Positions 28,621 through 59,088 of a stretch of 64,000 nt of DNA are shown here, in pieces. Under the pieces are notes generated by a model. The model worked only from the letters and a program-made list of their open reading frames with translations, was not told the origin of the DNA and did no database searches. Position 1 is the stretch's first letter; each line of letters starts with the position of its first letter. Where the stretch lies: the NCBI RefSeq assembly GCF_003148665.1, contig NZ_QGGQ01000004.1, positions 310,001 through 374,000 of the forward strand, read 5' to 3'. Both the position numbers and the translations under genes were made by a program. This DNA is from Maribacter polysiphoniae. Its GTDB lineage: Bacteria > Bacteroidota > Bacteroidia > Flavobacteriales > Flavobacteriaceae.

Positions 28621-28662
28621 TGACACCCGTCATAAAATAATTCCCTGTGTTTTGTATTTTTA
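28621..28662 (+). promoter_or_regulatory. FNR/CRP-type site and -7 element of cls
   Basis: TGACACCCGTCA (28621-28632), a TGAC-N4-GTCA palindrome, then 22 bases, then TATTTTTA (28655-28662) as -7 element. The spacing is one less than in most sites of the set. The ATG of cls follows 23 bases after. Confidence 0.6.
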
Positions 28663-28685
28663 AGTAATATTCAAAAGAGCCCACT

Positions 28686-30113
28686 ATGTATTGGACAATC
28701 GCCTTGATCATTTATGTGATTATAGCCATGGGAATGGTTATAAGTTTATTGGTCAATGGTATAAAACCAGCTAAAACACTGGCTTGGTTATTGGCCATTT
28801 TCACCATTCCGGTAGCGGGAATCCTTCTTTATTGGATGATAGGCAGAAATCGAAGGAAATATTCATGGAAAGACATTCAGGAAGATATTGCCATTAACAA
28901 TTACCTCAAGAAAATACAACGCAACCAGGATTCCGTGGAAACGTTGGATATGGACTCCAAAGGGTTTGCCAAACTTACCCGTCTTATTGAAAAAAACAAT
29001 GGCTTTAAGCCCACCAAAAACAATGACGTCACAATCTTAAAGGATGGCAAAGCCACATTTGATGCTATTTTCGAAGCCCTTGAGGCTGCCGACAAATACA
29101 TCTATCTACTCTATTACATATTTGAGGAAGGAGAACTCGCCGATCGCTTAATTGCCCTATTCAAAAAAAAGGTAAAAAAAGGTGTCAAGGTTAAGATTAT
29201 CTACGATGGGGTCGGTAGCTATTCCTTGAGCAAAAAATACATCTCCAAATTAAAATCAATAGGGGTTGAAGTCTATCCGTTCCTGCCATTTAAATTGGGA
29301 AGGTTTTTGGCCTCGATCAATTACAGGAACCATAGAAAGATCATTATCGTAGACGGAAAAGTGGCCTTTACAGGCGGCATCAACATCTCGGATAAATACT
29401 TGAAGGGTGATTTGGTATTGGGAAAATGGCACGACATGCATTTGCGATTAAGGGGGGCTTCCGTCCGGGAGTTGCAGGTGGTATTTGAAATTGATTGGTT
29501 TTTGGTCTCTGGTGACAATTCCGAATTTGACAGGGAATTACCCCCTTTACGGGAAAAGGTAGGAAACCAGATTGTACAGATCGTTTATGGCGGCCCTGAC
29601 GATTACTTTTCCCCCATTGGGCAGACCTATTTTGCCATGATCAATAATGCAAAAAAATACATTTATATCACCAACCCCTATATCATTCCGGGTACAGCGA
29701 TTCTCAAGTCCCTCGAAGTAGCCGCCAATAGTGGCATCGACGTTAGACTTCTGGTATCGGCCAATGCGGATAGTGTCCTGGTGAATTGGAGTGTGCGGTC
29801 TTACTTTGAATCCTTTTTATTGGCCGGAGTAAAGATTTACCTATTCCCCGAAGGTTTTTTACACAGTAAGATCATTGTTTCCGATGATAATTTAGTTTCC
29901 ATCGGTACTGCCAATATGGACATTCGAAGTTTTGAGCAGAATTATGAAGTAAATGCCATGGTATATGACTCCAAAACCGCGCTACTGCTCAAACAGGAAT
30001 TCTTGAATGAAATAGAGCACAGTATTCCCTTAGACTATAAATCGTTTAAAAACAGGCCCTATATAGAGCGACTGAAAGAAGGTTTTGCCAAGATATTCAG
30101 TCCCTTGTTATAG
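28686..30113 (+). CDS. cls: cardiolipin synthase
   Basis: A 475-residue phospholipase D-superfamily enzyme. Two N-terminal membrane helices (about 1-60: 'ALIIYVIIAMGMVISLLV', 'LAWLLAIFTIPVAGILLYWMIG') are followed by two HKD motifs: 'NHRKIIIVDGKVAFTGG' and 'HSKIIVSDDNLVSIGTANMD'. Both catalytic His-Lys pairs are intact. It joins two phosphatidylglycerols into cardiolipin on the inner membrane; cardiolipin increases in stationary phase. A palindrome of the island's regulon stands upstream. Its 3' end overlaps the convergent dehydrogenase gene by six bases. Confidence 0.94.
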   Translation: MYWTIALIIYVIIAMGMVISLLVNGIKPAKTLAWLLAIFTIPVAGILLYWMIGRNRRKYSWKDIQEDIAINNYLKKIQRNQDSVETLDMDSKGFAKLTRLIEKNNGFKPTKNNDVTILKDGKATFDAIFEALEAADKYIYLLYYIFEEGELADRLIALFKKKVKKGVKVKIIYDGVGSYSLSKKYISKLKSIGVEVYPFLPFKLGRFLASINYRNHRKIIIVDGKVAFTGGINISDKYLKGDLVLGKWHDMHLRLRGASVRELQVVFEIDWFLVSGDNSEFDRELPPLREKVGNQIVQIVYGGPDDYFSPIGQTYFAMINNAKKYIYITNPYIIPGTAILKSLEVAANSGIDVRLLVSANADSVLVNWSVRSYFESFLLAGVKIYLFPEGFLHSKIIVSDDNLVSIGTANMDIRSFEQNYEVNAMVYDSKTALLLKQEFLNEIEHSIPLDYKSFKNRPYIERLKEGFAKIFSPLL

Positions 30114-31758: not shown

Positions 31759-31777
31759 GATTTCCAGTTTTATAGCC

Positions 31778-32227
31778 TCAATTAAGGAGCCTTTTTTGTT
31801 TTTCTTTTTTCATTATCTTCGAAATAAATTGGAATAAACTTCCTTTTAGTTTTCGATAGCTTACCAAATACGTATCAATGGTATAGATCATATCCCTATG
31901 ACTTTCCGTATAGGCTTTCTCCATTTTAGGTTGATCAATGTCGTCCAACATAATGGATAATTGATTCTCATGTACCATAGCCTTTTTCAAGAGCTTTTCG
32001 GCCTCTAATTCCGAATTGGAGATTGCGGTAACCAATTCCTTACTCTCCTCATACAAGCCAAGACTTGTGATTTGAAGTGTATAGGACTTGATCAAATCAT
32101 TTAGGAACAATTGTTCATCCTTAACGAATTTCAACTGGGAAATCCATTCTAATGAAGTTTCGTGCATTTCTTCTGGGCTTTTCCATTCCAAATACCTGTA
32201 AATCTGTTTTTTAGTTTTCATGTTCAT
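31778..32227 (-). CDS. helical stress-island family protein, copy A
   Basis: A 149-residue, fully helical, charged protein (MNMKTKKQIYRYLEWKS...). It is one of four divergent relatives in this window (A here; B 33265-33696; C 43852-44304; D 45819-46268). Shared pattern: a Trp/Leu start helix ('EWISQLKFVKDEQLFLNDLIKSY'), a middle helix ending 'VxHExxLxxML', and a last helix with aromatic-Lys-Leu ('SYRKLKGSLFQFI'). No signal peptide or catalytic motif, and I know of no named family. It is the first gene of the operon with the lipoprotein and the D-lactate dehydrogenase, and carries a regulon-type promoter. A bundle binding another macromolecule is a reasonable guess, nothing more. Confidence 0.72.
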   Translation of the reverse strand: MNMKTKKQIYRYLEWKSPEEMHETSLEWISQLKFVKDEQLFLNDLIKSYTLQITSLGLYEESKELVTAISNSELEAEKLLKKAMVHENQLSIMLDDIDQPKMEKAYTESHRDMIYTIDTYLVSYRKLKGSLFQFISKIMKKEKQKRLLN

Positions 32228-32288
32228 ATACTTTTAAATTGATATCGACTTGTTTTACCCTTTAAGGCAGTACACCATATTACTACTC

Positions 32289-32331
32289 CCAAGGTATCCC
32301 TTTTATAGCTTTGTATAAATGATTTAGATCA
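32289..32331 (-). promoter_or_regulatory. FNR/CRP-type site and -7 element of operon A
   Basis: On the minus strand: TGATCTAAATCA (32331-32320), 23 bases, then TACCTTGG (32296-32289), a near-consensus -7 element. No TTTG -33 element is present at the usual place, as expected when an activator replaces it. Confidence 0.75.
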
Positions 32332-33264: not shown

Positions 33265-33696
33265 TTATTTGCTGGGTTTATTTTTTTTTAAAATACCTCC
33301 CGCATATTCAAATATCTCGGATTTAAGGTCTTTGAAGCTTTCCATATAACTGACCGTCTCGGCTTTTAGCAATTCATGTTTTTGATGATAGAACTTATCA
33401 CATGTCCGATCGGAACTTTCAAGGATTCCCCCGATACTATTCTCATGGCTTACGACTTGTTTGGAAAGCGTGTTCCAGTCGGCCTTTGATTTTTTTATAC
33501 GTGACTGGTAATTCTGTAAACGCTCGAACAAATTAGGGGTATTGGGTTCAAAAACATACGAATTAAGTAAGTGTTGTATGAAGGTAAGTTCATCAAATAC
33601 GAGCTGTAAGTAGGATTTCCATTGCTGGGATTCCCTATACATCTGCTCGACTTTCTCGGACAGGACCTTCTTTGCTGTTTTTTTCTGGGAAACCAT
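33265..33696 (-). CDS. helical stress-island family protein, copy B
   Basis: A 143-residue relative of copies A, C and D. It has 'QQWKSYLQLVFDELTFIQHLLNSYVF', the middle 'VVSHENSIGGILES' (compare 'MVHENQLSIMLDD' in A) and the end 'ESFKDLKSEIFEYAGGIL', with a Lys-rich tail. The Trp-x-x-x-Leu helix, the His-Glu pair and the last aromatic helix are the common skeleton. All-helical, cytoplasmic, unknown function. It has its own regulon promoter with the best -7 element of the set (TAGCTTTG) and lies 69 bases downstream of the beta-CASP gene on the same strand. Confidence 0.72.
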   Translation of the reverse strand: MVSQKKTAKKVLSEKVEQMYRESQQWKSYLQLVFDELTFIQHLLNSYVFEPNTPNLFERLQNYQSRIKKSKADWNTLSKQVVSHENSIGGILESSDRTCDKFYHQKHELLKAETVSYMESFKDLKSEIFEYAGGILKKNKPSK

Positions 33697-33713: not shown

Positions 33714-33756
33714 CAAAGCTATCCATGCCTACCGGGTTTTACAATGACGAATATCA
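33714..33756 (-). promoter_or_regulatory. FNR/CRP-type site and -7 element of copy B
   Basis: Minus strand: TGATATTCGTCA (33756-33745), 23 bases, then TAGCTTTG (33721-33714), a perfect TAnnTTTG. The ATG at 33696 follows 17 bases after the -7 element. Confidence 0.82.
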
Positions 33757-33765: not shown

Positions 33766-35136
33766 TTAAACCATGAGTTCTATCGTCTCATGTAGTTTGG
33801 GAATATGTACCTGCCAATTGAATTTATCGTTCAACTTGCTTCTAAACGCATCCAATGCCGTTGGTTCGCCGTGGACTAAAAATACCCGCTCAGGGATATT
33901 CTTCAAGCCTGACAGCCAATCGAGCAATCCTGATTGGTCCGCATGGGCCGAGAGACTTTCCAAATGCCTGATTTCCGCTTTAACCGGGTAATACTTGCCA
34001 AAAAGTTTCAATTCATGCGCCCCTTCCAAAAGTTGTTTTCCACGAGTACCTTCCGCTTGGTATCCGACAAGTAAGACTATGGTACCTTCAACATCAATCA
34101 ACTGCTTCAAATACGTAAGTACCCTTCCACCGGTGACCATACCACTACCCGCAATCACAATTTTTGGTCTTGGGTCATCAATGGTTTCCCAAGTTTCCTT
34201 GTACGAGCTTATGATATTCACATGATCACACATGGCGTTGTATTCCTTTAAGGAAAGTTTATGCCAATCGGGAAACTGCTGAAATACCGACAAAACATTA
34301 TTGCCCATTGGGCTGTCTACAAAAATCGGGATATTCGGTATTTTGTTCTTTTTATAAAGCAGCCATAATTGATACATCAAGGATTGTAATCGCTCCACCG
34401 CAAAGGAGGGAATAATGAGATTACCCCTTTGCTGTATCGTCTTATTGACCAATTCCGTTAAAATACCCTCAACGTCTTCTTTGGGGTGGTTTTTATTGCC
34501 ATAGGTACTTTCGACAAATAGAAAGTCCGCCCATTCAGGGCGTTCCGGTGGTTCCAACAGAAAATCCTCCTGACGGCCAATATCCCCGGAAAACACAAAT
34601 CGCTTTCCGAAAATCTCCAATTCAATAAATGTGGCGCCAATGATATGTCCATTGTATTTTGTCCTAAACCGTATATTCGGGGAAAGGGTTTCCCATTCAT
34701 CTTTCTCTATGGATGAAAACAAGGAAATCGTCTCTTTAGCCTCCTCAACGGTATAGAACGGAAGGGCGGGTTTATGCTTGGAATACCCTTCCTTATTCGC
34801 TTTTTCAGCTTCTTCTTCGTGAATTTTAGCGCTATCCTTCAGAATGATCGAGGTAATGGCAAGCGTAGGTGCGGTTCCCAAAATCCTACCCTTAAAACCT
34901 TCTTTCAATAACCTGGGTAAATATCCCGTATGGTCTAAATGCCCATGGGTAAGCAATACATAGTCGAGTTCATTAACCGGTATAGGAAGTGGCTCCCAAT
35001 TACTCATCCTTAGTTCCTTTAAACCTTGGAACATACCACAATCGACCATGAGTTTGAGTTCAGGTGTTTCCAAATAGTATTTGGACCCCGTAACGGTACC
35101 GGCAGCACCTAAGAATTGTATTTTTACTGTATTCAT
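33766..35136 (-). CDS. MBL-fold/beta-CASP ribonuclease-like enzyme
   Basis: A 456-residue metallo-beta-lactamase-fold protein with a beta-CASP domain, of the bacterial 'exonuclease involved in RNA processing' group. Zinc motif THGHLDH at residues 63-69 (His64, His66, Asp68, His69), 'FSGDIGR' (Asp), beta-CASP segments 'IPSFAVERLQSLMYQL' and 'IVIAGSGMVTGGRVL', and the RMMBL end 'LESLSAHADQSGLLDWL' with 'VFLVHGEP'. It probably processes or degrades RNA. Its start is six bases downstream of the ATP-cone nuclease gene, so the two form one unit. Similar pairs are known in anaerobic/stationary-phase clusters of other bacteria. Confidence 0.92.
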   Translation of the reverse strand: MNTVKIQFLGAAGTVTGSKYYLETPELKLMVDCGMFQGLKELRMSNWEPLPIPVNELDYVLLTHGHLDHTGYLPRLLKEGFKGRILGTAPTLAITSIILKDSAKIHEEEAEKANKEGYSKHKPALPFYTVEEAKETISLFSSIEKDEWETLSPNIRFRTKYNGHIIGATFIELEIFGKRFVFSGDIGRQEDFLLEPPERPEWADFLFVESTYGNKNHPKEDVEGILTELVNKTIQQRGNLIIPSFAVERLQSLMYQLWLLYKKNKIPNIPIFVDSPMGNNVLSVFQQFPDWHKLSLKEYNAMCDHVNIISSYKETWETIDDPRPKIVIAGSGMVTGGRVLTYLKQLIDVEGTIVLLVGYQAEGTRGKQLLEGAHELKLFGKYYPVKAEIRHLESLSAHADQSGLLDWLSGLKNIPERVFLVHGEPTALDAFRSKLNDKFNWQVHIPKLHETIELMV

Positions 35137-36986: not shown

Positions 36987-37394
36987 CTAGGTTTTAAAAA
37001 AATCGCGAACCAATTTCTTAACCTGGTTATGTGTCATACTATCGGCTTTAGTCACCGTTTTTACCTTGGTGGCAGTAAGTGGATGCTTTTTATCCAGATA
37101 CTTCTTAAACCGTGCCGCCGTTTCCGCAGGACCAAATAATGCCAAGCTCTCAGCTTTCCCTATGGCTTTAACCAAGTTTTCAAAATACAATTTGTACTGA
37201 TGGTTTTCCCGTTCTAGATATTTACTATCCTGTACAACGTCTTGGGGCCCCCATTTCGCCGATTTTGTACCCGAACCTCCTGAAGGCCTATAGTTCTCTA
37301 TTTCAGAAACAACCGTGTTAAACGTTTCGGAATCATTCTTAAGCGATACAATGTGCGCTTTCTCCTTATCAAGCCAAATACCAATATTTTCCAT
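36987..37394 (-). CDS. release-factor-like (baeRF-type) domain protein, tentative
   Basis: A 135-residue cytoplasmic protein: 'IGIWLDKEKAHIVSLKN' at the start, then 'YFENLVKAIGKAESLALFGPAETAARFKKYLDK' and the end 'VKTVTKADSMTHNQVKKLVRDFF'. The last two segments look like the eRF1-domain-like fold of bacterial release-factor-related (baeRF / 'translational machinery') proteins, in which an alpha/beta sandwich carries 'G.aE....l' patterns. A role on stalled or idle ribosomes would suit the hibernation genes nearby. The resemblance is by pattern and the call is tentative. First gene of a unit with mscS. Confidence 0.6.
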   Translation of the reverse strand: MENIGIWLDKEKAHIVSLKNDSETFNTVVSEIENYRPSGGSGTKSAKWGPQDVVQDSKYLERENHQYKLYFENLVKAIGKAESLALFGPAETAARFKKYLDKKHPLTATKVKTVTKADSMTHNQVKKLVRDFFKT

Positions 37395-37417: not shown

Positions 37418-37460
37418 TGAATATCTCGAAAAAAAACGCATGGTACAATGACCAAAATCA
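37418..37460 (-). promoter_or_regulatory. FNR/CRP-type site of the 37394/mscS unit
   Basis: Minus strand: TGATTTTGGTCA (37460-37449), 23 bases, then GATATTCA (37425-37418), a weak -7 match. The first three bases of the site are the stop codon of the preceding universal stress gene. Confidence 0.55.
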
Positions 37461-39186: not shown

Positions 39187-40032
39187 TTATCTAAACAAAT
39201 TCTGCATCACCAAAAACGGGATCTTAATATGCAACCCTATTTTATCCAAAGTTGATTTTGTCAGCATATCCTCTACAAACGAATGCCGGGTGTTGACCAA
39301 GACCAGCATATCAATGTTTTTGTGCACAATGTACTTGGTAATGGCAATGGTCTTATCTTTCTCCTCGGTTGTCTCAAATACCAATCTGGCCTTGGGAAGG
39401 CACTCCTTAAGAAATTGCTGGTTGTCCTCTTGTCTAAGCGTTAATTTTTTAATGGGGTCTATGTACAGCATATGGATGGTCGACCTAAAGGAACCGGACA
39501 TTTCGCACAGCAATTTTAATTCACGTCTTTTGTAGGGCACCAAATAATTGGTGGGGAAAAGCAACTCTTTTGGCGCATGATAGGTATAACCTTCAGGTAT
39601 GGCCAAGACCGGACAACTTATATACTTCAACACTTGCAATGTATTACTGCCAAAGGTTAGACTTCGATCATTGGTCGCCCCTCTTGTTGCCATAACGACA
39701 ATATCCAGGTTTTCCAAATTGACCAAGTCATTTACTTCGTCGATCAAGGAACCAAATGCGGATATTGTTTTGTACTTGTGATGGGGGTTTGGATATTCAT
39801 GTCTAATCCTTTCCAATACCTCATTAAGCTTTTCTTCAGACTTTCGTTGTGTTTTTTCCTTAAGCTCGTCCAAAAGGCTTCTTTTTGTTAAGCGATCCTG
39901 TTGGTAGACCTCATCGGCATAAGCATGCATAATGAAAATCTCGCTTTTTTCGTACTTGAATACATGGCAGGCATATTTCAAGGCATTAAAGGCATTATCT
40001 GAAAAATCCGTAGGAACCAATATCTTTCTCAT
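39187..40032 (-). CDS. tandem universal stress protein
   Basis: A 281-residue tandem UspA protein from the ATG at 40032 (MRKILVPTDFSDNAFNALKYA). The open frame reaches back to 40074, but the promoter inferred from the palindrome has its -7 element at 40063-40056, so the transcript would start near 40050, inside the longer frame. This favours the inner start, which also gives the standard USP beginning. The nucleotide motif is slightly changed: first Gly replaced by Ala in 'MATRGATNDRSLTFGSNT'. The second domain is degenerate. First gene of the three-USP operon. Confidence 0.93.
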   Translation of the reverse strand: MRKILVPTDFSDNAFNALKYACHVFKYEKSEIFIMHAYADEVYQQDRLTKRSLLDELKEKTQRKSEEKLNEVLERIRHEYPNPHHKYKTISAFGSLIDEVNDLVNLENLDIVVMATRGATNDRSLTFGSNTLQVLKYISCPVLAIPEGYTYHAPKELLFPTNYLVPYKRRELKLLCEMSGSFRSTIHMLYIDPIKKLTLRQEDNQQFLKECLPKARLVFETTEEKDKTIAITKYIVHKNIDMLVLVNTRHSFVEDMLTKSTLDKIGLHIKIPFLVMQNLFR

Positions 40033-40055: not shown

Positions 40056-40098
40056 CAAATTTAACTTTTAACAAAGTTTAAAACCATGACATTAATCA
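40056..40098 (-). promoter_or_regulatory. FNR/CRP-type site and -7 element of the three-USP operon
   Basis: Minus strand: TGATTAATGTCA (40098-40087), 23 bases, then TAAATTTG (40063-40056), a perfect TAnnTTTG. On the plus strand the same palindrome stands 22 bases before TTACTTTG (40121-40128), ahead of trxA, so one site may serve both directions. Confidence 0.82.
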
Positions 40099-40147: not shown

Positions 40148-40453
40148 ATGAAAAGTAGTTTTACAAATATCATCAATTCAGAAACCCCGGTTCTTGTAGA
40201 TTTTTTCGCTGATTGGTGTGGCCCTTGTAAAATGTTGGCGCCAATCCTCAAGGAGGTAAAGAAAGAATTGGGCGATGCGATCAAGATCATTAAAATCGAT
40301 GTGGACAAAAATCAATCAATAGCTTCCCAATACCAGGTACGGGGCGTACCTACCATGATCTTATTCCAAAACGGCAAACAATTATGGCGGCAATCGGGTG
40401 TGCTCCAAAAAAGGGATATCGTGCAAGTGATACAATCAAAAAGCCAATCATAA
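40148..40453 (+). CDS. trxA: thioredoxin
   Basis: A 101-residue thioredoxin with the active site WCGPCK (Cys24, Cys27), cis-Pro in 'RGVPTMILFQNG' and normal length. It reduces protein disulfides in the cytoplasm and is recharged by TrxB. It is probably a secondary, stress-linked thioredoxin because it stands inside the USP cluster, divergent from a USP operon and sharing its regulatory palindrome. It converges on another USP gene with five bases between the stops. Confidence 0.94.
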   Translation: MKSSFTNIINSETPVLVDFFADWCGPCKMLAPILKEVKKELGDAIKIIKIDVDKNQSIASQYQVRGVPTMILFQNGKQLWRQSGVLQKRDIVQVIQSKSQS

Positions 40454-40458: not shown

Positions 40459-41298
40459 TTACTCATGCAGTATTAGGAAAGGAATATCCGTGTGGTAACT
40501 GATTTTTTCCACTTTTGGCCGAAATAGGATACGCTGGAAAAAATTAAGGTTTTTGGCCACCATAGTAATCATATCTATATCCCTGGATTCCGTAAAACAC
40601 TGTACCGAAGTCTCTAGGTCCTCCCCTGTCAACGAATGGAAACTATGGTTCACATCTTGTAGGTAATCATTCAGGAATTCCTTGTTTTCCAATTGTTCGT
40701 CACTTAGTTTCTCACCTTTCTTTGAAATATGTAGGATACGCAAATCCGATTTATTCAAGTTGACCATTTCTATAAGCGTATCGAGTACATTCAAATCATA
40801 ACCCAAATGGTAATCCGTAGGAAAGGCAATTTCCCTAGGTGTTTTATAAATGGTATTCTCTGGCACAGCCAAAAGCGGGCATTTGACTTTGGTAAGTACA
40901 TCACCGGTATTACTGCCCAAGGTTACTTTCTTTAAGCCCGAAGCCCCTTTCGTTCCCATGATGATCAGATCTATTTTCTTATTCTCAACTTGGCGTTTGA
41001 TCGCCTCAACAAAAAAATTATGTGAGGCAATGGTGGTATAGGAATGTTTGGTGCTAGAATCGAATTTTTCAATCTGGAACAATAGCTTTTCCAGACTTGC
41101 CTTACTTTCTATCAAAACATTTCCTTCTGCCATCTTAGAAGAAACCCGTACGGATGTTCCCGCTCCTGTATAGGCAGGAATCGGGTTAATATGCAGCAAA
41201 TAGAATGTACATTGGACGTCTTTGTATAATTGAACCCCATACTTAAGGGCATTCCAGGCATTTTCAGAAAAATCGGTTGGGACTAAAATGTGCATCAT
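40459..41298 (-). CDS. tandem universal stress protein
   Basis: A 279-residue tandem UspA protein (MMHILVPTDFSENAWNALKYG). Nucleotide motif intact in the first domain: 'MGTKGASGLKKVTLGSNT'. Second domain from about 147 ('PREIAFPTDYHLGYDL') is degenerate and ends 'FQRILFRPKVEKISYHTDIPFLIL'. It is transcribed alone from a regulon promoter lying between it and the receiver-CRP gene, and converges on trxA. Confidence 0.93.
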   Translation of the reverse strand: MMHILVPTDFSENAWNALKYGVQLYKDVQCTFYLLHINPIPAYTGAGTSVRVSSKMAEGNVLIESKASLEKLLFQIEKFDSSTKHSYTTIASHNFFVEAIKRQVENKKIDLIIMGTKGASGLKKVTLGSNTGDVLTKVKCPLLAVPENTIYKTPREIAFPTDYHLGYDLNVLDTLIEMVNLNKSDLRILHISKKGEKLSDEQLENKEFLNDYLQDVNHSFHSLTGEDLETSVQCFTESRDIDMITMVAKNLNFFQRILFRPKVEKISYHTDIPFLILHE

Positions 41299-41323: not shown

Positions 41324-41366
41324 TAAAATTAAATCGTTATCCCCAATTAGTAAATGACCAGCATCA
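41324..41366 (-). promoter_or_regulatory. FNR/CRP-type site and -7 element of usp 41298
   Basis: Minus strand: TGATGCTGGTCA (41366-41355), 23 bases, then TAATTTTA (41331-41324). It lies just past the 3' end of the receiver-CRP gene, so the proposed regulator gene is directly followed by one of its targets. Confidence 0.78.
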
Positions 41367-41388: not shown

Positions 41389-42444
41389 TCAATAAATTCG
41401 GCTTAAGGACTCTTGATCCAGAATTCGTATGTTATGGTCTTCCATAGCAATCAATCCTTCCTTTTTAAAGCTTGACAGGGTGCGGATCAGGGTTTCTGTG
41501 GCCATCCCTGCAACGCTGGCGAGATCGCTACGTAAGATCTGTATATTCCCTTGTTTATCGCGCTCAAGCTTATCGGCAAACTTCAAGAGGGTACTTGCCG
41601 TCTTCTTGCGTACGGACCCATAGGCCATTTCCAATAATTGTTTTTTGGCATCGGTAAGGTTTTCTGCCAGGACATGCATTAACTCAAGGGCAAGGCTGTG
41701 GTTCTCCTGTAAGACCACCCGTAACTTATCCTTGTTTACCCCAACCAATTTGGTATCTTCCATAGCGGTAGCATATTCCTCATAAACTTCGTGGGCCGAC
41801 AGGGATGAAAAACCGAAGAAATCATCCTCTTTATAAATCGCAGTAATCAGTTCCTTTCCATTTTCATCCAGTTTATGGGTCTTTACAATCCCTTTTATGA
41901 TTAAATAGATCATATGCACATTACCTCCCTCATGATAGATCTGCTCGCCTTGGGCGAATTCCAATTCATCCCCATTGTCATCCAAATAATTCTTGAATTC
42001 ATGAATAGAGCAGATTCCCAAATCTATTTCCTCTTCCTTTTCAGGTTTTGAATTTTGGATTTCCTTTAAAATGGCAGCCCTGGCCAACCTACTCTCAATC
42101 GCACCAATGAGATCGGATTCTTCAAAAGGTTTTGTCAAGTAATCATCAGCCCCGAGGTTCATTCCTTTACGAATATCCTTTCGTTCCGTTTTGGCCGATA
42201 GGAAAATGAAAGGAATGTGCTTGGTCGATTGATCTTCTGCCAACTGTTCCAAAACACCATACCCATCCAGTTCGGGCATCATGATGTCGCAGATGATCAC
42301 ATCGGGTAAAACCTCTTTTGCAATCTTAACCCCTTTCTTCCCATTGGACGCCGTAAACATTTCATAATCTGAAAGTTCCAATAATTCAGCTGTATTATCC
42401 CTAAGCACGGGATCATCCTCTATCAATAATACTTTACTCATCAT
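41389..42444 (-). CDS. response regulator fused to a CRP/FNR-type DNA-binding module
   Basis: A 351-residue regulator with three parts. Residues 1-125 are a receiver domain: Asp10-Asp11 pocket, phosphoacceptor Asp53 in 'VIICDIMMPELDGYGVL', Ser83, Lys105 in 'LTKPF'. Residues about 150-265 form a cyclic-nucleotide-binding-like beta roll ('FAQGEQIYHEGGNVHMIYLIIKG', 'FFGFSSLSAHEVYEEYATAMED'). The last 80 form a CRP-type winged helix ('LRSDLASVAGMATETLIRTLSSFKKEGLI'). The recognition helix has E-T-x-x-R, the residues that read T-G-A half-sites in FNR and CRP. There is no FNR-type cysteine cluster, so it is probably controlled by phosphorylation from the PAS kinase three bases upstream. Proposed reader of the TGAY-N4-RTCA sites. 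Confidence 0.92.
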   Translation of the reverse strand: MMSKVLLIEDDPVLRDNTAELLELSDYEMFTASNGKKGVKIAKEVLPDVIICDIMMPELDGYGVLEQLAEDQSTKHIPFIFLSAKTERKDIRKGMNLGADDYLTKPFEESDLIGAIESRLARAAILKEIQNSKPEKEEEIDLGICSIHEFKNYLDDNGDELEFAQGEQIYHEGGNVHMIYLIIKGIVKTHKLDENGKELITAIYKEDDFFGFSSLSAHEVYEEYATAMEDTKLVGVNKDKLRVVLQENHSLALELMHVLAENLTDAKKQLLEMAYGSVRKKTASTLLKFADKLERDKQGNIQILRSDLASVAGMATETLIRTLSSFKKEGLIAMEDHNIRILDQESLSRIY

Positions 42445-42447: not shown

Positions 42448-43692
42448 CTAGTTTAATCCTGTATCTATTCGATTGTTGATGGGAAGCTCAACCGTAAAGG
42501 TCGTTCCCTCATTTTGTTTGCTTATAAAATAAATCTTTCCTTCAAGGTTTTCTATATGATCCTTTATAATATTTAGACCAATGCCCGTTCCTTGGTTCAA
42601 AAGGGCATTCTCTGCCCTAAAATAACGTTCAAAAATATGTTTTTGATCCTTCGCTGGTATGCCGATACCTTGGTCCTGGATCTTTAGTACCATCTGACTT
42701 TCCACAATCTCAATCGAAATATCTATATCGCTATCCTCGGGGGAATATTTTATTGAATTATAGAGCAAGTTAGTCAATATTAAGGTTACGATCTTCTCGT
42801 CTTGATGAATGATAATATCATCTATATTCTGGGGGTAATTGATATGTTGGCCTATCTTCAACAACATGTTGGCGTTGTATACTACCTCATTGACAATTTT
42901 ACTTAGGGAAAACGTAGTGAACCCATAAATTTCTTTTCCTTTTTCCAGCCTTTCCATGGATAGAAAATCGGTCAGAATACTATTTAAGTGCCTAACCTCC
43001 CCAATGATTGTATTGATGTGTTTTAGGCGCTTTTCCTGATGGTGGGCTTCCTTATACTTGCCCACAAGTGTGGCAGAGGAAAGTATCCCGCTCAGTGGCG
43101 TCTTGAATTCATGGGAAACCAGTGACAGGAATTTTGTCTTCAATGCCCCCAGTTCACGTTCGCGTTCCAATGCTGATTTCATCCTGATTTCGGCCTCTTC
43201 CCTCCTCTTGACTTCTTTTCTCAATTTGGCAACGGTCTCCCTCAATTCATAGGTTCTGGTCTTGATCTTTTTCTCGAGATGTTCATTCAATTCCTGGATT
43301 TGCAAATCCCTATTACTAAGCTCGGTCTTATCGAATACCAAGGCAAAAACATAATGGGAACCATCCGTTTCAAAAGGATTAAGGCTTATTTGTATCGGAA
43401 ATTCCACCCGATCCTTTCGCAGGCCAAAGAGCAGGCGATCAACCATCATTTTACTGGACCTATGCGTGTTAAAAAACCTATTTACATTAAAATCGTGATT
43501 ATTGCGATGGGAATCTGGTACCAAGATGTGTATAGGCTTCCCAATAAGTTCCTGTTCCCCATAACCGAACATTTGATCCGCTTTGGAATTCGTGGCCACA
43601 ATAACATGCTCTCGATTAATAACCAATATCCCTTCTGAAACCGCTTCGGAAAGCAAGTTGAAAATAGTATTGTTTTGCGCGAAATTCTTCAT
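42448..43692 (-). CDS. soluble PAS-domain histidine kinase
   Basis: A 414-residue histidine kinase with no membrane helix, hence a cytoplasmic sensor. A PAS domain spans about 10-125 ('ILVINREHVIVATNSKADQMFGYGEQELIGKPI', 'LVPDSHRNNHDFN', 'GLRKDRVEFPIQISLNPF'), then a coiled coil about 126-180 ('LNEHLEKKIKTRTYELRETVAKL'), the H-box His194 in 'SLVSHEFKTPLSG', and an HATPase with 'NLLYNSIKYSPE', 'DQGIGIP' and 'GTGIGLNI'. His66 and Arg86 have the same 20-residue spacing as the heme ligand His200 and distal Arg220 of FixL, but ordinary PAS domains can share this, so heme is only a possibility. Same operon as the receiver-CRP protein. Confidence 0.92.
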   Translation of the reverse strand: MKNFAQNNTIFNLLSEAVSEGILVINREHVIVATNSKADQMFGYGEQELIGKPIHILVPDSHRNNHDFNVNRFFNTHRSSKMMVDRLLFGLRKDRVEFPIQISLNPFETDGSHYVFALVFDKTELSNRDLQIQELNEHLEKKIKTRTYELRETVAKLRKEVKRREEAEIRMKSALERERELGALKTKFLSLVSHEFKTPLSGILSSATLVGKYKEAHHQEKRLKHINTIIGEVRHLNSILTDFLSMERLEKGKEIYGFTTFSLSKIVNEVVYNANMLLKIGQHINYPQNIDDIIIHQDEKIVTLILTNLLYNSIKYSPEDSDIDISIEIVESQMVLKIQDQGIGIPAKDQKHIFERYFRAENALLNQGTGIGLNIIKDHIENLEGKIYFISKQNEGTTFTVELPINNRIDTGLN

Positions 43693-43792: not shown

Positions 43793-43835
43793 TGATAAAA
43801 ATCATATTATAAAATTATTTATAAGTTTAATTTTA
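43793..43835 (+). promoter_or_regulatory. FNR/CRP-type site and -7 element of the copy C-cbpA-cbpM operon
   Basis: TGATAAAAATCA (43793-43804; extended palindrome ATGATAAAAATCAT), 23 bases, then TAATTTTA (43828-43835); the ATG of copy C follows 16 bases later. In the other direction TAACTTAC stands 23 bases from the same palindrome, ahead of the kinase gene, suggesting the pair also controls itself. Confidence 0.82.
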
Positions 43836-45257: not shown

Positions 45258-45547
45258 TGGAACAATATAACTATATTGACGTAAAGGAATTTTGCTACAG
45301 TCATGGGGTCCCTACGCAATTCATCATACAATTGCAGGATTTCGGTTTGATTGAAGTCGTCAAAAAAGAGGATACCGAATATATTCCTTTTGAGGAACTC
45401 CCAAAAGTGGAAAAAATAGTTCGTCTGCATGATGACCTGAATATCAATCTTGAGGGAATCGAGGTCATTCACCAACTATTGGATCGTATCGCGCAAATGC
45501 AAAACGAAATCATTTCCCTAAAGAACAAACTCGACTTTTACCAATAG
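45254..45547 (+). CDS. cbpM: CbpM-family chaperone modulator
   Basis: A 97-residue protein overlapping the cbpA stop (ATGA). It has the MerR-like helix-turn-helix look of CbpM ('[30 protein letters not shown]', '[36 protein letters not shown]'), with a coiled-coil C-terminus. In E. coli CbpM binds the J domain of CbpA and holds it inactive. The conserved pairing makes the call secure. Start could be the first or second of two adjacent ATGs. Confidence 0.92.
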
Positions 45548-45740: not shown

Positions 45741-45783
45741 TGATAAAAATCATAAAAAATACAAGTGATAGAAGGTAACTTTA
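45741..45783 (+). promoter_or_regulatory. FNR/CRP-type site and -7 element of copy D
   Basis: TGATAAAAATCA (45741-45752), identical to the site before copy C including the outer A/T pair, 23 bases, then TAACTTTA (45776-45783). Confidence 0.82.
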
Positions 45784-45818: not shown

Positions 45819-46268
45819 ATGGAAAATTATAGAACTAGACCAAAGGGTGATTATATTCAACAGACAGATTGGAATGAATTATATGTTTTGACCAAGCATT
45901 GGAAATCCGATTTGACCTTCTACCAACAAGACCTGAAATTTCTCCTTAAATTATTGGATAAATATTTTATCTGGATTACAAAAAAGGAGAATCTGGATGC
46001 TGTCAAAAAAATTGGGGAGGGCATATTAAAGGACAAAAAAACGGGGGACCAGCTCTTAAATAGGGTCGACGGACATCTTACCCATATTGCCCAAACCATA
46101 GAAGATCCATTTAAGCATGATACCCGATTATTCCGTGAGGAACATCAGGAACTTGAAGACGATATCGCAAAATTTTATAAAACAGTACGCAGTAACAGAA
46201 AACAAGTGTTCGCCATAACGGAACACATCGTTGACGTGGAGAACCTGGAACATTTACTTGAGGAATAA
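45819..46268 (+). CDS. helical stress-island family protein, copy D
   Basis: A 149-residue relative of A, B and C: 'LYVLTKHWKSDLTFYQQDLKFLLKLLDKYFIWI' (compare 'QQWKSYLQLVFDELTFIQHLL' in B), the middle 'RVDGHLTHIAQTI', then 'HDTRLFREEHQELEDDIAKFYKTV' and an end helix. It shares the W-K-S-x-L start with B and the F-L-x-x-L-L-x-x-Y-F helix with C. Function unknown. Single gene with its own regulon promoter, convergent with the ROK kinase gene (four bases apart). Confidence 0.72.
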   Translation: MENYRTRPKGDYIQQTDWNELYVLTKHWKSDLTFYQQDLKFLLKLLDKYFIWITKKENLDAVKKIGEGILKDKKTGDQLLNRVDGHLTHIAQTIEDPFKHDTRLFREEHQELEDDIAKFYKTVRSNRKQVFAITEHIVDVENLEHLLEE

Positions 46269-46272: not shown

Positions 46273-47223
46273 TTATGAAACATAGGACCATGCCAATGCC
46301 GCTGGCCCCAATATGGCCGCATCCCTAGGCGCATCGGAAAGGTATACTTTTATCTTTCCCTTATAGGCGACAAAAAGGTTTTTCTCCATGCTTGCCTTAA
46401 CAGGTTTTAAAAGAATATCGCCTGCTTTGCTTAGTCCCCCTGCAAGAATAAAAGCCTCAGGGTCTAAATGAGCCACTGTATCGGCCATTTTACGGCCTAA
46501 AATCTCTGCCGTGATATCAAAAGCCCTAATGGCCAAAGCATCGCCTTCCAGCGCAGCCTTAGCGATAGCTTCCCCTGTCAAGTCCTCAAAACTAATACTG
46601 CGTAGCGGGGATGCCTCACGCATTTCCGCAATGAGCTCAAAAACCGTACGCTTTATTCCGGTGACCGATGCATAGGTCTCCAAACACCCCTGTAAGCCAC
46701 AATTGCAATACCTGCCATTGGGATCCACATTCACATGGCCTATCTCACCTGCCTGGGCGTGTTCCCCCAATAAAAGTTCGCCATTCACAATGATACCACT
46801 GCCTAGCCCCGTTCCCAAAGTCAAAACCACAAAATTGCGCATGCCTTGCCCCAAACCAAATCTCAACTCGCCCAAGGCAGAGGCATTGGCATCATTCGCA
46901 ATGTAAACAGGTAGTCCTAATGCCTCATTGATTGCTTTTACGATAGGGGTTTCCTTTCCCCAATTCAGATTGGGCGGATTCTCAACCTTTCCCGTCAACG
47001 AATTGGCATTGGGAGCACCTATTCCAATGGCCATAGGCTTATCCTGGGTATTCAAGGAACCCAGTAATTGTTTTATATTGGATATTAATTCCTTTAGATA
47101 AATAGCAAAGGGTTCTTTTGATTTTGTACTAAAAACCGCGGAATCAAGAATACCCCCATTTTTATCCACAATACCGATTTTTGTATAAGTACCTCCGATA
47201 TCAATAGCCAATACAGTATTCAT
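46273..47223 (-). CDS. ROK-family sugar kinase (glucokinase-like)
   Basis: A 316-residue ROK protein without a DNA-binding domain, hence a kinase rather than a repressor. ATP loop 'LAIDIGGTYTKIGIVD', catalytic Asp in 'YIANDANASALGE', 'LTLGTGLGSGIIVNGELL', and the ROK zinc motif 'CNCGLQGCLETYAS'. It phosphorylates glucose or a related hexose with ATP in the cytoplasm. It converges on copy D and is divergent from the TerB-like gene, sharing an intergenic region that contains a regulon palindrome. Confidence 0.93.
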   Translation of the reverse strand: MNTVLAIDIGGTYTKIGIVDKNGGILDSAVFSTKSKEPFAIYLKELISNIKQLLGSLNTQDKPMAIGIGAPNANSLTGKVENPPNLNWGKETPIVKAINEALGLPVYIANDANASALGELRFGLGQGMRNFVVLTLGTGLGSGIIVNGELLLGEHAQAGEIGHVNVDPNGRYCNCGLQGCLETYASVTGIKRTVFELIAEMREASPLRSISFEDLTGEAIAKAALEGDALAIRAFDITAEILGRKMADTVAHLDPEAFILAGGLSKAGDILLKPVKASMEKNLFVAYKGKIKVYLSDAPRDAAILGPAALAWSYVS

Positions 47224-47274: not shown

Positions 47275-47317
47275 TGATACAAATCAGCCTGAACATTAAA
47301 AATTAAACGTATAATTA
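47275..47317 (+). promoter_or_regulatory. FNR/CRP-type site and -7 element of the TerB-like gene
   Basis: TGATACAAATCA (47275-47286), 23 bases, then TATAATTA (47310-47317), one mismatch from TAnnTTTR. The minus-strand side has a weaker match (TAAATTGT at 24 bases) toward the ROK kinase. Confidence 0.7.
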
Positions 47318-47355: not shown

Positions 47356-47778
47356 ATGGAAAATAGCAAGGACTCCCTGAATCATCACCTAGGTATCTTA
47401 TTTTATGCCGTTGCCATGGCGGATAAAAAAGTGCATGAAAAAGAACATGAAATGCTTAAAAAAAAACTATCCGAAGCATTGACACAACAAGGGGAAAATC
47501 CAGAGGACCTTACCCGAAATGACGCTCTTACCATTGAAGGGGTTTTTACCCGTATGCAAAAAATCAACGCGGAAAGCAGTACCTGTTTTAAACAGTTTTG
47601 TGACTATTTCGATAAGAACCCATCGCGCTTTACCCCTAGATTGAGAAAATGGGTGTGGAACATCGCACAGGCCATTGCATCATCATCTGCCCAAAAGAAC
47701 AAATCGGAATTAATTCTTCTGGGCAAACTTAGATTACTTTTTGAAACCCAATCACACCCGGAAAGTGATAACGGGTAA
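47356..47778 (+). CDS. TerB-like helical protein
   Basis: A 140-residue all-helical protein: 'LGILFYAVAMADKKVHEKEHEMLKKKLSEAL' is close to the first TerB-domain helices ('...A.ADg.v...E...l...l'), and 'IEGVFTRMQKINAESSTCFKQFCDYFDKNP' and 'WNIAQAIASSSAQKNKSELILLGKLRLLF' fit the later ones. TerB-like proteins take part in membrane-linked stress responses. The C-terminal 27 bases overlap the end of the convergent USP gene. Carries a regulon promoter. Compare the shorter relative at 3956. Confidence 0.72.
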   Translation: MENSKDSLNHHLGILFYAVAMADKKVHEKEHEMLKKKLSEALTQQGENPEDLTRNDALTIEGVFTRMQKINAESSTCFKQFCDYFDKNPSRFTPRLRKWVWNIAQAIASSSAQKNKSELILLGKLRLLFETQSHPESDNG

Positions 47779-48588
47779 GTCAGCCCTATTCGCAATATCC
47801 TCCCCTACACTGCCTTTAAAAAAGTGTGCAAGCCCTTTTCTTCCACGGGTAGGAAGTGCGATAATATCGGCATTTATGGTTTGGGCGTAATTATAAATAC
47901 CCTGTTCTATACTATAATCATTGAGAATGGTGACATTTTCCTTGGCGGGTATTTTACCGTGATGCGCCACACCCATAAAAACATCTATTTGTTCCTTGAT
48001 TTCCTCGGTACTTTTAAAATATTGATTGGGCCTGTTTATATAGACTTTATGGACTTCAACATCCAACATGTCGAAAAACTTCAAGGCCTTATGGTACACT
48101 TCCTTATGTTCAAGCCCAAAATCACTGGCGAACACCGCTTTCTTAATGTCAAAATCGGTTCTTTTCTTTTTGATGACAAGCACAGGCACCTCACAATTTC
48201 TAACCACCTTTTCGGTATTTGACCCTACGAACAGTCCACTGAGACCTGTTGCCCCATGGGACCCCATGACCACAAGGTCTATTCCATGTTCCTTTACAAC
48301 GTTGTTCAATTCGTTGAAATCCTTGTAGTTCTGTACGATCTCAAACATCCTCACCCCCTTGAGAAAGGGCTTATCCAAAAATTCATTGAATCTTTTCTTC
48401 GCCAATTTCATATAATATTGGGCCTCCATAAACTCCTGGGCTTCATCTTTTGTGAAAATAGCCTCAGAAAGGCCCAGCATGTGCAATAAGATTAAATCGG
48501 CATCAATTTTTTTAGCCAAATGGGCTGCAACCTCCAAGGCATTTTCAGAGAATTCAGAAAAGTCAACCGGTACGAGTATTTTCTTCAT
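47752..48588 (-). CDS. tandem universal stress protein, divergent type
   Basis: A 278-residue tandem UspA protein (MKKILVPVDFSEFSENALEVA). The first domain has an intact nucleotide motif ('MGSHGATGLSGLFVGSNT'). Unlike the other four, the second domain (from about 150, 'FDIKKAVFASDF') keeps a recognisable USP end ('LPTRGRKGLAHFFKGSVGE', 'LPVITF'). It follows hpf by 32 bases on the same strand, so the two are probably co-expressed. Confidence 0.93.
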   Translation of the reverse strand: MKKILVPVDFSEFSENALEVAAHLAKKIDADLILLHMLGLSEAIFTKDEAQEFMEAQYYMKLAKKRFNEFLDKPFLKGVRMFEIVQNYKDFNELNNVVKEHGIDLVVMGSHGATGLSGLFVGSNTEKVVRNCEVPVLVIKKKRTDFDIKKAVFASDFGLEHKEVYHKALKFFDMLDVEVHKVYINRPNQYFKSTEEIKEQIDVFMGVAHHGKIPAKENVTILNDYSIEQGIYNYAQTINADIIALPTRGRKGLAHFFKGSVGEDIANRADLPVITFRV

Positions 48589-48620: not shown

Positions 48621-48920
48621 TTAACGCTTATTCATAACGGCTTTTCTCTTGTTCAATTGTTTTTCAAGGTCTTTAATGGTATTTGCTGCCGCTTTCTCAA
48701 AATCATCCTCATTAGATCTTGCAAAAATCCGGGGTCCAGGGGCACTGAGTTCCATTTCACATATTTTACCCTTACCCGTGGGATCATTTTCTTGCTTAAA
48801 ATAAACTTCCGCCCGTATTACCCATTCAAATTTTGCAGCAAGGCGATTCAATTTAACGGTTATTAATTCATTCATTGCTTCACTGGTAGGCATTTGAACA
48901 TATTGAATGTTGATTGTCAT
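48621..48920 (-). CDS. hpf: short hibernation-promoting factor (HPF/RaiA)
   Basis: A 99-residue ribosome hibernation factor, close in size to short HPF (E. coli 95 residues). It runs from MTINIQYVQMPTSEAMNELIT through 'VYFKQENDPTGKGKICEMELSAPGPRIFARSNEDDFEKAAANTIKDLEKQL', the standard beta-alpha-beta-beta-beta-alpha layout, with a basic end. It binds the 30S decoding centre and keeps ribosomes idle in starvation or anoxia. It is the first gene of the hpf-usp unit, under a well-formed regulon promoter. Confidence 0.93.
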   Translation of the reverse strand: MTINIQYVQMPTSEAMNELITVKLNRLAAKFEWVIRAEVYFKQENDPTGKGKICEMELSAPGPRIFARSNEDDFEKAAANTIKDLEKQLNKRKAVMNKR

Positions 48921-48945: not shown

Positions 48946-48988
48946 TAAAGCTATGATTTTTACAAAAATGAAACCATGACAAATATCA
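48946..48988 (-). promoter_or_regulatory. FNR/CRP-type site and -7 element of hpf-usp
   Basis: Minus strand: TGATATTTGTCA (48988-48977), 23 bases, then TAGCTTTA (48953-48946). Leader to the ATG about 20 bases. Confidence 0.82.
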
Positions 48989-57102: not shown

Positions 57103-57332
57103 TTTTATGTTTTCTAAGAAGCCAAATATAGTATAAACCTTAACTATTTTCTAAAGAAACAACGCCTTAAAGAGGGAGTCAACCGATGACGTCCCAATCG
57201 CTAAAACCCCTTTAGTTTTTCCATCCCTTTTGCCCTTTTTCCAAAAAGCAATCGTTGGCAACCCTAAATCAGCATCGTTGCCAACCACCAATAGGAGGTT
57301 TTTCGGATTTTCTTTTCTTTGGATAACCTTTT

Positions 57333-58514
57333 TTATTTGATTCCGAACTTAAAGTAGGTAGCCGTGGAATATTTTTCTCCCGGATTCAAGGTTACGGAAG
57401 GAAAATCGGGCTGGTTTGGTGAATCGGGATAATGTTGGGTTTCCAAACAAAGTCCACTTCTTTTACCGAAAGTACCCCCATCCGGTCTTGGAAGTGTGCC
57501 ATCCAAGAAATTTCCTGTGTACAATTGAACCCCTGGTTCGGTAGTGGCCACTTCCATAACCCTTCCCGTTTCCGGATCATATACTTTAGCCACTGTTCTT
57601 AAACCTGTATCTTGACCCTTTAACACCCAGCAATGGTCATATCCGCCACCTTTGTTAATTTGATCATTATCAGCATTGATATCCCTTCCTATTGGCTTGG
57701 GGGACCTGAAATCAAATGGTGTCCCAGCTACATCCATAAGTTCCCCTGTAGGAATCAGGTTTTCATCGACAGGAACCAGTTGATCCGCTTCCAATGAAAC
57801 TTCATGATCCATTATGGTTTTTGAGAAATCCCCAGAGAGGTTAAAATAGGAATGTTGGGTCAGGTTCACCACAGTAGGTTGATCCGTAGTAGCCTCATAA
57901 GCTACTTGCAAGGTATTGTCTTTGGTAAGTGTATAGGTGACGGTAGTCTTGAGATTCCCCGGGAAGCCCTCTTCCATATCCGTACTCAGATAACCCAATT
58001 TTAATATCGCATTTTCATTTTCAGCCGTTGCTTCCTCTTTCCAAACCACTTTATCAAATCCTTTTAGCCCCCCGTGCAAATTGTTTGGGCCATTATTTGC
58101 TGCCAAGTTATATTCCTTTCCATTCAATGAAAATTTGGCGTTTGCGATTCTGTTACCATATCTACCGACCAATGCCCCAAAAAAAGGATTTTCCTTTTCG
58201 TACTGTTCCAAAGTATCAAACCCCAAGACCACATTACTAAACTTTCCATCTCGATCCGGAACGGACAATCCCGTAATCCGGCCACCATAGGTTATGATAT
58301 CCACTTCCATTCCATTTGTATTCCTTAACGTATAAAGCTCTACGGTCTTACCCTCCGAGGTAGTGCCATAATCCTTTTTAGTGACGGTAGCTTTTGATTT
58401 CTGTTCCATAGGATCTTTTATGTTTTCTTTTTGGATTTTATTCTTACAACTTACACCAACAAAGGTCATTGCTATAGTCAACAAAAGGAAATAAATACAT
58501 TTTGATTTTCTCAT
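57333..58514 (-). CDS. galM: aldose 1-epimerase (mutarotase), lipoprotein
   Basis: A 393-residue galactose mutarotase-like enzyme from the ATG at 58514. The open frame begins at 58577, but the inner start gives the lipoprotein signal MRKSKCIYF...GVSC with Cys23. The catalytic region is present: 'GRYGNRIANAKFSLNG', 'NLHGGLKGFDKVVW', 'NLTQHSYFNLSG' (His), and 'SGLCLETQHYPDSPNQPDFP' (Glu base). It interconverts alpha and beta anomers of hexoses. Envelope anchoring is common in Bacteroidetes, where sugars are processed in the periplasm. Confidence 0.92.
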   Translation of the reverse strand: MRKSKCIYFLLLTIAMTFVGVSCKNKIQKENIKDPMEQKSKATVTKKDYGTTSEGKTVELYTLRNTNGMEVDIITYGGRITGLSVPDRDGKFSNVVLGFDTLEQYEKENPFFGALVGRYGNRIANAKFSLNGKEYNLAANNGPNNLHGGLKGFDKVVWKEEATAENENAILKLGYLSTDMEEGFPGNLKTTVTYTLTKDNTLQVAYEATTDQPTVVNLTQHSYFNLSGDFSKTIMDHEVSLEADQLVPVDENLIPTGELMDVAGTPFDFRSPKPIGRDINADNDQINKGGGYDHCWVLKGQDTGLRTVAKVYDPETGRVMEVATTEPGVQLYTGNFLDGTLPRPDGGTFGKRSGLCLETQHYPDSPNQPDFPSVTLNPGEKYSTATYFKFGIK

Positions 58515-59045
58515 AACTTTTTGTCCATTATACACAGTTGACCTTGCGGAGACTGGGGGCCATAAACCCGGTCCCAATCCTTAAGCTATTCGTGAATAGC
58601 CCAAAAAAACACCCGTATCCCAAATAAGGATGTTTTCAAGGAATCCTCAGTTTCCTCCGGTTGCAATAAAGAAAAGATCGCAGCTTAAACTGCAATCTTT
58701 TCCAAACAAATTCCAAATTACAGTTATGTAATTTTAATTCAGCAACTCTTAAAAAGTGTATTTGTTACACATTTAAAAGTAATAAAGTTTTCTATATGAA
58801 CAAGTATCGAATCGATAATATTTTTATTTCCGGTTATTTTATGATGAGCTTTAAATAAACTAAATACAATTCCATAATTTTGTCCTTTAATTAAAAAATA
58901 GGGATGATTATTCCTTAAGGGGACAAAAAACCAATAACCGTTACCAACCGGACCTTATACTTACCCTCATTATGAAGACCCCCGTATATTAGGGTATCAA
59001 GACATATTCTTATATGGAAGGATAATCAAAAAACTAGAATTTTTA
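58515..59045. other. long divergent intergenic region
   Basis: Between galM (minus) and the TolC-like gene (plus). It holds an orphan terminator-like hairpin (58671-58702) and a palindrome AAATTAC-N6-GTAATTT (58715-58734) that could be an operator of galM. No open frame longer than about 20 codons with sense. The right edge is the regulon-type palindrome at 59046. Confidence 0.5.
58671..58702. terminator. orphan hairpin
   Basis: GAAAAGAT-C-GCAG / CTGC-A-ATCTTTTC with a six-base loop: shaped like the bidirectional terminators elsewhere in the window, yet it lies upstream of both flanking genes, with no transcript to end. It could be the remnant of a lost gene or end a short unannotated RNA. 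Confidence 0.55.
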
Positions 59046-59088
59046 TGACTTATGTCATAAATAGTACTAGCATATCGAGGGAACTTTG
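59046..59088 (+). promoter_or_regulatory. FNR/CRP-type site and -7 element of the efflux operon
   Basis: TGACTTATGTCA (59046-59057), within the 16-base perfect palindrome TATGACTTATGTCATA, then 23 bases, then GAACTTTG (59081-59088), one mismatch from TAnnTTTG. Same geometry as in the 32-49 kb island. Confidence 0.75.

Follow-up and report, generated by a model that had tools for sequence, protein, structure and literature searches.

Introduction

E. coli FNR recognizes the palindrome TTGAT-N4-ATCAA, has its cysteines at positions 20, 23, 29 and 122 and shares with CRP a class II position centred at -41.5. FixL and DosP are haem oxygen sensors, the output domain of FixJ is of the LuxR/NarL type, and DosR is a NarL-type regulator. 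To our knowledge, few Bacteroidota regulons are known at the promoter level. This study concerns a 64,000-nucleotide stretch of the Maribacter polysiphoniae genome (contig NZ_QGGQ01000004.1, positions 310,001 to 374,000; hereafter the window), in which the palindrome TGAY-N4-RTCA repeatedly stands 23 bp before a -7-like octamer, TAnnTTTR, upstream of genes. From sequence comparison, these sites are likely to be class II promoters of a regulon of the CRP/FNR family. The likeliest main reader in the island is the response regulator encoded at 41389-42444, in which a receiver is fused to a CRP-type output (REC-CRP).

Operator sites and their spacing

The window contains 17 TGAYN4RTCA palindromes; 100 dinucleotide shuffles of it average 4.8 and never exceed 10. 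Eleven of these had been named in a preliminary description of the window as preceding transcription units, and all eleven were located there (Table 1). The remaining six (6939, 38476, 38985, 57661, 59173 and 60805), about the number expected by chance, lie inside open reading frames (ORFs) and have no octamer with at most one mismatch to TAnnTTTR at 22-24 bp. The spacings first reported were all found again. Nine sites have the octamer at exactly 23 bp, with a strict TAnnTTTR in six (33745, 40087, 41355, 43793, 45741 and 48977) and one mismatch in three (32320, 47275 and 59046). The octamer of site 28621 matches perfectly at 22 bp, and that of site 37449, at 23 bp, deviates from TAnnTTTR at two positions. 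Octamers with zero or one mismatch make up a background of 65 among 3740 positions (1.7%) at 30-199 bases from the eleven sites.

The whole genome (5.13 Mb, 30 contigs) was then scanned with TGAYN4RTCA-N22-24-TANNTTTR, which yields 66 matches; the reversed pattern yields 2. The spacing is 23 in 59 of the 66 matches, 22 in five and 24 in two. Widening the spacer to N8-38 gives 96 matches versus 15. A genome scan had been proposed as a check on whether the combined motif lies upstream of genes, and it does, with only three of the 66 sites inside genes under a simple ORF-based gene call. The base directly after TCA is T in 55 of the 66.

Related loci were collected by scanning contigs with an alignment of the genome's three REC-CRP proteins and keeping the best 80 of 574 candidates (1.56 Mb). 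By title, these 80 loci come from flavobacteria or unclassified Bacteroidia, and the closest among them is from Maribacter arenosus (82% identity). The octamer occurs at exactly 23 bp in 332 cases, and each other distance from 5 to 45 gives 0-10 (mean about 3), a result that speaks for the neighbourhood of the regulator because the loci were selected by it. At 23 bp, each of six scrambled palindromes with a similar composition is followed by the octamer once or not at all. At least one site at 22-24 bp is present in 79 of the 80 loci, the exception being L125. Among 327 distinct sites at 23 bp, 323 are intergenic and four lie in genes at a coding fraction of 0.834, so equal frequency within and between genes was rejected for this 83.4% coding DNA. 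The octamer precedes the start codon by a median of 22 nt. A chance origin was rejected by the window shuffles, the reversed pattern, the spacing peak and the scrambled palindromes.

Conservation at homologous promoters

A site was counted as conserved in the 80 loci if the palindrome and T[A/G]NNTT at 22-24 bp occurred within 200 bp upstream of a homologue. With paralogues included, the two Usp genes retain the site at most homologous promoters (71 of 77 for 39187-40032 and 68 of 78 for 40459-41298). It is also kept upstream of the 140-aa gene 47356-47778 (19/20), the S30AE gene (15/19), gene 45819 (4/4), gene 33265 (2/2), the 150-aa gene 43852 (1/1) and gene 31778 (11/25), which brings the conserved window sites to eight of eleven. 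At these promoters the half-sites and the box are retained, and the N4 and spacer sequences are often changed. A control RNase gene, 33766-35136, has the site at 0 of 32 homologues, and a shared neighbourhood as the only cause was rejected on this ground.

Of the eleven sites that had been put forward as one set, those eight hold up, and two are poorly conserved: 28621, found at none of five promoters homologous to that of gene 28686, and 37449, found at only 4 of 25 for gene 36987. The efflux gene behind site 59046 has no homologue among the 80 loci.

Three operators also face a gene on their other strand. The thioredoxin gene 40148-40453 is possibly a second target of operator 40056..40098, and an operator with octamer lies upstream of 14 of its 34 homologues. 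The ROK gene 46273-47223 is divergent from operator 47275..47317, and on its side the palindrome is present at all three homologues and the octamer at one. Operator 43793..43835 is divergent from the kinase-regulator operon, towards which it presents a two-mismatch octamer, TAACTTAC; on this side, the palindrome occurs at 49 of 68 kinase homologues and the octamer at 12.

The regulator and its kinase

Pfam identifies Response_reg (7e-29), cNMP_binding (1e-15) and HTH_Crp_2 (2e-12) in the protein encoded at 41389-42444. Its receiver has the acidic pocket, phospho-accepting Asp, Ser/Thr and Lys of such domains (E9, D10, D53, S83 and K105). All 80 relatives share these residues as well as E317 and R321 in the recognition helix. 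The cNMP-binding domain was compared with 3h3u, a solved, cAMP-binding protein of the CRP/FNR family. At the positions of the cAMP-contact Glu and Arg-Ser, the regulator has Gly-Phe in place of Gly-Glu and does not preserve the Arg-Thr/Ser stretch.

A relative of the kinase is encoded immediately upstream of the regulator in all 80 loci. The best solved relatives of the kinase's PAS domain are the haem-PAS of FixL (2e-14) and then DosP (5e-5), and the proximal His and oxygen-sensing Arg of FixL align with His66 and Arg86. Against NF041777, the NCBIfam model for rhizobial FixL with a cut-off of 850 bits, the kinase scores 96.6 bits, and the NCBIfam matches listed for the regulator and the kinase (25 of 106 and 25 of 86) are all far below cut-off. 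Among the 74 loci with a placed kinase start, 56 have a palindrome no more than 260 bp ahead of the kinase; the octamer points towards the kinase in 11 loci and towards the divergent gene in 41. Autoregulation of the kinase-regulator operon is possible.

Candidate readers of the operator

Seven HTH_Crp_2 matches were found in the genome, six of them in ORFs of the CRP/FNR family and the seventh, below cut-off, in an ORF read as GntR-like. The six include three REC-CRP proteins, namely the window regulator and two sisters that are 44% identical to it, and one FNR homologue. These four have in common the recognition helix ATE[ST]xIRxxSxFK; the helices of the other two ORFs are different (YSKESVINTL and TSRVVISRLL). 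Each sister gene is adjoined by a kinase ORF of about 1,080-1,110 aa. PAS and GAF domains are found in the kinase on contig C5, whose operator precedes it by 30 bp; the operator of the kinase ORF on contig C18 is ~430 bp upstream.

In an alignment with solved FNR, the FNR homologue matches three of the four cysteines (C28, C31 and C130). All 21 proteins have Asn or Ser in the column of the third cysteine, with a Cys three residues later in 8 of 20 relatives, and the homologue does not have the complete set of four E. coli-type cysteines of an oxygen-labile [4Fe-4S] FNR. Four cysteines of its own (28, 31, 77 and 130) are retained in 20 of 21 Bacteroidia FNR homologues (L032, L138-L157); L153 lacks all four.

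To relate the motif to these regulators, 247 genomes drawn from the class were grouped by chosen E-value cut-offs in a hand-copied table, under which 124 have a REC-CRP relative at E < 1e-60. The density per Mb is 2.91 in the 43 genomes with both regulators, 1.10 in the 81 with REC-CRP only, 1.28 in the 59 with an FNR homologue only and 0.43 in the 64 with neither; the reversed control gives 0.08-0.10 in all four groups. Predicted targets range from a few to several dozen per genome. This comparison does not support the earlier claim of one activator for all units: the recognition helices of four regulators are almost alike, and the motif is denser in genomes with either regulator type. A single dedicated activator was rejected on the shared helix and on the density being highest where both types occur.

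The strongest rival to the reading that the window's REC-CRP protein is the main local reader is that the FNR homologue alone reads the operator, the REC-CRP protein binding something else and merely lying nearby. The FNR homologue does have the same helix, and the FNR-only genomes contain 245 matches versus 19 reversed. Among 26 downstream ORFs in these genomes, two can be read as having CcoN-like starts and one as starting like the HemN-like protein. We nevertheless regard this as rather unlikely, since the REC-CRP-only genomes contain 333 matches versus 24 reversed, sites cluster densely near REC-CRP genes and the REC-CRP helix does not vary at E317 and R321 in the 80 relatives. Considerably less probable is the converse, that the window regulator controls all 66 sites of its genome. 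A single motif with a single main spacing genome-wide would fit it, but the three REC-CRP paralogues each have a kinase ORF, the FNR homologue has the same helix and motif density tracks both regulator types.

A division of labour, with Usp genes under REC-CRP and respiration under FNR, is suggested by the target groups and by the downstream ORFs of the FNR-only genomes, although the numbers for the latter are too small. The base after TCA was tried as a discriminator between the regulators and led nowhere. In the first 30 loci each from 12 of the 59 FNR-only and 12 of the 81 REC-CRP-only genomes, chosen for high counts, T occurs at 20/30 and 16/30 sites, respectively. Both values are lower than in the 80 loci (96%), and part of the distant matches are therefore probably chance or diverged.

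Promoter geometry

In Flavobacterium psychrophilum, the sigma-A -7 box TAnnTTTG lies at -12 to -5 according to a promoter study (PMC9723704). A box at that position and a gap of 23 bp place the palindrome at -47 to -36 and its centre at -41.5. Its half-sites, TGA...TCA, are two-fold symmetrical with the spacing of CRP/FNR sites, and the fixed centre follows from the 23-bp peak together with the published -7 position. A class II module of FNR/CRP type with its centre near -41, as had been suggested for the window, is thus well supported by spacing, geometry, upstream position and conservation. In 331 distinct sites, the bases outside the search pattern are T at -35 (96%), C or A at -48 (89%) and A at -50 (67%). 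The operator of the 80 loci (L058-L137) is asymmetric beyond the palindrome, with T at -35 on the promoter side and C/A at -48 on the far side.

Two further rivals to activation by a CRP/FNR-type protein concern this geometry. The palindrome overlaps the expected -33 element and might be a repressor operator that blocks this region. We consider this very improbable, because class II activation depends on just such a fixed distance, here 23 bp with the centre at -41.5, and a repressor operator would tolerate shifts, while other spacings are near background. It is scarcely credible that the sigma factor alone reads the palindrome as an extension of the promoter: the T at -35 outside the search pattern would suit it, but the half-sites have two-fold symmetry with CRP/FNR spacing and their abundance follows CRP/FNR-type regulators across genomes.

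Target genes and feature list

The genes downstream of own and related sites number 387 in 87 groups, which are named by the member from this genome where one exists. The Usp group is represented by 161 genes in 82 loci or stretches, an unnamed 135-aa family by 43 genes in 42 loci and an unnamed ~145-aa family by 20 genes; smaller groups are S30AE (14), the kinase operon (11), CcoNO (11) and MlaE (9). Pfam was run on 40 downstream genes of this genome. It finds Usp, CcoNO (cbb3 oxidase), PFOR, PPDK, lactate/malate dehydrogenase, enolase, pyruvate kinase, E1 dehydrogenase, Hsp20, ScdA_N, Rrf2, RseC, a ferritin-like protein that can be read as Dps-like and a radical-SAM protein that can be read as HemN. 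FtsH was scanned as well, but its start lies 396 bp from the site, with a smaller ORF in between. Together, these genes form a low-oxygen and stress gene set.

Pfam gives nothing above cut-off for the small proteins at 31778, 33265, 36987, 43852, 45819 and 47356. Genes 33265-33696, 43852-44304 and 45819-46268 are three diverged copies of the ~145-aa family (WKSxLxFxxDELxFL), each with its own operator. Gene 47356-47778, which has a sub-threshold TerB match only, belongs to the unnamed family of 43 genes in 42 loci (135-140 aa), which lies behind an operator (e.g. L065:8002-8409) and is often divergent from the kinase-regulator operon. After the 43793 site, 44358-45547 encodes in the same direction a DnaJ-type protein (DnaJ + DnaJ_C) and then a MerR_2 protein, a pair that presumably resembles CbpA-CbpM.

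Elsewhere in the genome, five adjacent operators (G000:C4:467246-478022; L043:7746-18522) have near-identical cores (TGAYYYARRTCAG) with G replacing T after TCA. They precede a YflT-like gene, an unknown, enolase, DUF308 and a ferritin-like gene, and they perhaps represent a second specificity.

Table 1. Candidate operators and regulatory genes, in window coordinates unless a contig is given
Feature	Coordinates	Strand	Spacing	-7 octamer	Remarks
Palindrome	28621..28662	+	22 bp	TATTTTTA	Precedes PLD-domain gene 28686-30113; doubtful
Operator	32289..32331	-	23 bp	TACCTTGG	Precedes 149-aa gene 31778-32227
Operator	33714..33756	-	23 bp	TAGCTTTG	Precedes 143-aa gene 33265-33696
Palindrome	37418..37460	-		GATATTCA (weak)	Precedes 135-aa gene 36987-37394; doubtful
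Operator	40056..40098	-	23 bp	TAAATTTG	Precedes Usp gene 39187-40032 (from its ATG)
Operator	41324..41366	-	23 bp	TAATTTTA	Precedes Usp gene 40459-41298
Response regulator	41389..42444	-			Receiver, cNMP-binding fold and Crp-type HTH (Pfam); candidate operator reader
Sensor histidine kinase	42448..43692	-			FixL-like PAS; same direction, just upstream of regulator
Operator	43793..43835	+	23 bp	TAATTTTA	Precedes 150-aa gene 43852-44304
Operator	45741..45783	+	23 bp	TAACTTTA	Precedes 149-aa gene 45819-46268
Operator	47275..47317	+	23 bp	TATAATTA	Precedes 140-aa gene 47356-47778
Operator	48946..48988	-	23 bp	TAGCTTTA	Precedes S30AE (ribosome hibernation-type) gene 48621-48920, then Usp 47752-48588
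Palindrome	59046..59088	+	23 bp	GAACTTTG (one mismatch)	Precedes outer-membrane efflux gene 59124-60605
FNR homologue	G000:C5:132511-133215 (L032:976-1734)				Outside the window; alignment with solved FNR

Discussion

From the observed sequence, spacing, position, conservation, domain make-up and co-occurrence, we infer a course of signalling, phosphorylation, binding and activation as follows. The FixL-like kinase would sense low oxygen or the redox state and phosphorylate D53 in the receiver of the REC-CRP regulator. An FNR-like dimer would bind TGAY-N4-RTCA centred at -41.5, cover the position of the usual Bacteroidota -33 element and recruit RNA polymerase to TAnnTTTR. In the window, phosphorylated REC-CRP would switch on Usp, the hibernation factor, thioredoxin, several small unnamed proteins and, probably, the DnaJ-type chaperone. 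The two sister REC-CRP systems and the FNR homologue probably read the same operator, in which case several signals would feed one promoter code. With somewhat less assurance, we favour the broader reading of a Bacteroidia stress/oxygen regulon with one code and many inputs. In it, three receiver-fused CRP/FNR proteins with kinases of their own and a cysteine-rearranged one-component FNR would act on one rigid module (TGAY-N4-RTCAT, 23 bp, TAnnTTTR), the roles of FixJ and FixK being merged.

Several points weigh against the first of these readings. The loci were picked by the regulator, and sites near it are no independent sample. Three of the eleven window sites (28621, 37449 and 59046) lack conservation support, and because the helix is common to four regulators, a given site may be read by any of them. 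In the class survey, genomes with neither regulator still have 81 matches versus 17 reversed, many genomes scored as having no FNR homologue carry weaker CRP/FNR matches, and the between-group Mann-Whitney values (P <= 7e-6) are uncorrected for phylogeny. Autoregulation is not general, as just 11 of 74 loci show an octamer directed at the kinase operon. As for the signal, 49 of 57 kinases aligned in this PAS domain carry the FixL-type His and 39 of 58 the Arg, the others having a different residue, and 22-23 of the 80 could not be aligned there; the sensor therefore varies, and haem is a candidate cofactor. Weaker PAS matches include the CitA PAS domain, and the same His pattern also occurs in PAS domains without known haem binding. 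Finally, some Flavobacteriales CRP/FNR homologues are predicted, in the sections of PMC8510549 considered here, to be carbon-source sensors, and oxygen is therefore not the sole candidate signal.

The outcome is a readable operator code with a fixed geometry, predicted targets and a named regulator-kinase pair. If the proposal is true, it would shed light on the switch of these bacteria to survival under low oxygen or starvation, and it would provide an example of a two-component system whose last component is itself an FNR-type activator.

Comparison with known systems

In the open-access literature, covered mostly at the level of titles and abstracts and with few subscription papers, a receiver-fused flavobacterial CRP/FNR regulator or this promoter module was not recognized. 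The MalR-like homologues of Flavobacteriales (PMC8510549) come from the same order and are of the CRP/FNR family. They were searched for with the Bacteroides MalR matrix, and the sections considered mention neither a receiver fusion nor a fixed-spacing operator. The sigma-A promoters of F. psychrophilum (PMC9723704) have the same type of -7 box at the same position, and the main text of that study does not contain Crp, Fnr or palindrom. The Burkholderia lxa locus and the mycobacterial DosR regulon, as far as they are described in the portion of PMC6127331 used here, resemble the present locus in being rich in Usp genes, in including a heat-shock protein and in their link to low oxygen; they differ in operator, phylum and promoter.

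The class II promoters of FNR and CRP are similar in their TGA core half-sites, N4 centre, CRP-fold regulator and centre at -41.5, and also in the cbb3 oxidase and HemN-like targets; the regulon as proposed would operate in the manner of FNR or FixK regulons, with the half-site core in common. The outer bases, C/A at -48 and T at -35, are unlike those of E. coli FNR, the -7 box is the Bacteroidota TAnnTTTR, and the window candidate, unlike FNR and CRP, carries a receiver domain. With the FixL-FixJ-FixK system of Burkholderia, as outlined in the relevant passages of PMC5234846 and PMC6127331, the locus has in common a FixL-like PAS kinase, a two-component signal, a final step of CRP/FNR type and low-oxygen genes. 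The output of the window regulator is cNMP_binding plus HTH_Crp_2 and not of the FixJ type, and this output and a kinase score far below the FixL cut-off indicate that the system is not FixLJ-K. Instead, the receiver, in the role of FixJ, and the CRP/FNR activator, in the role of FixK, are found in one protein, and the intermediate transcriptional step would thus be absent.

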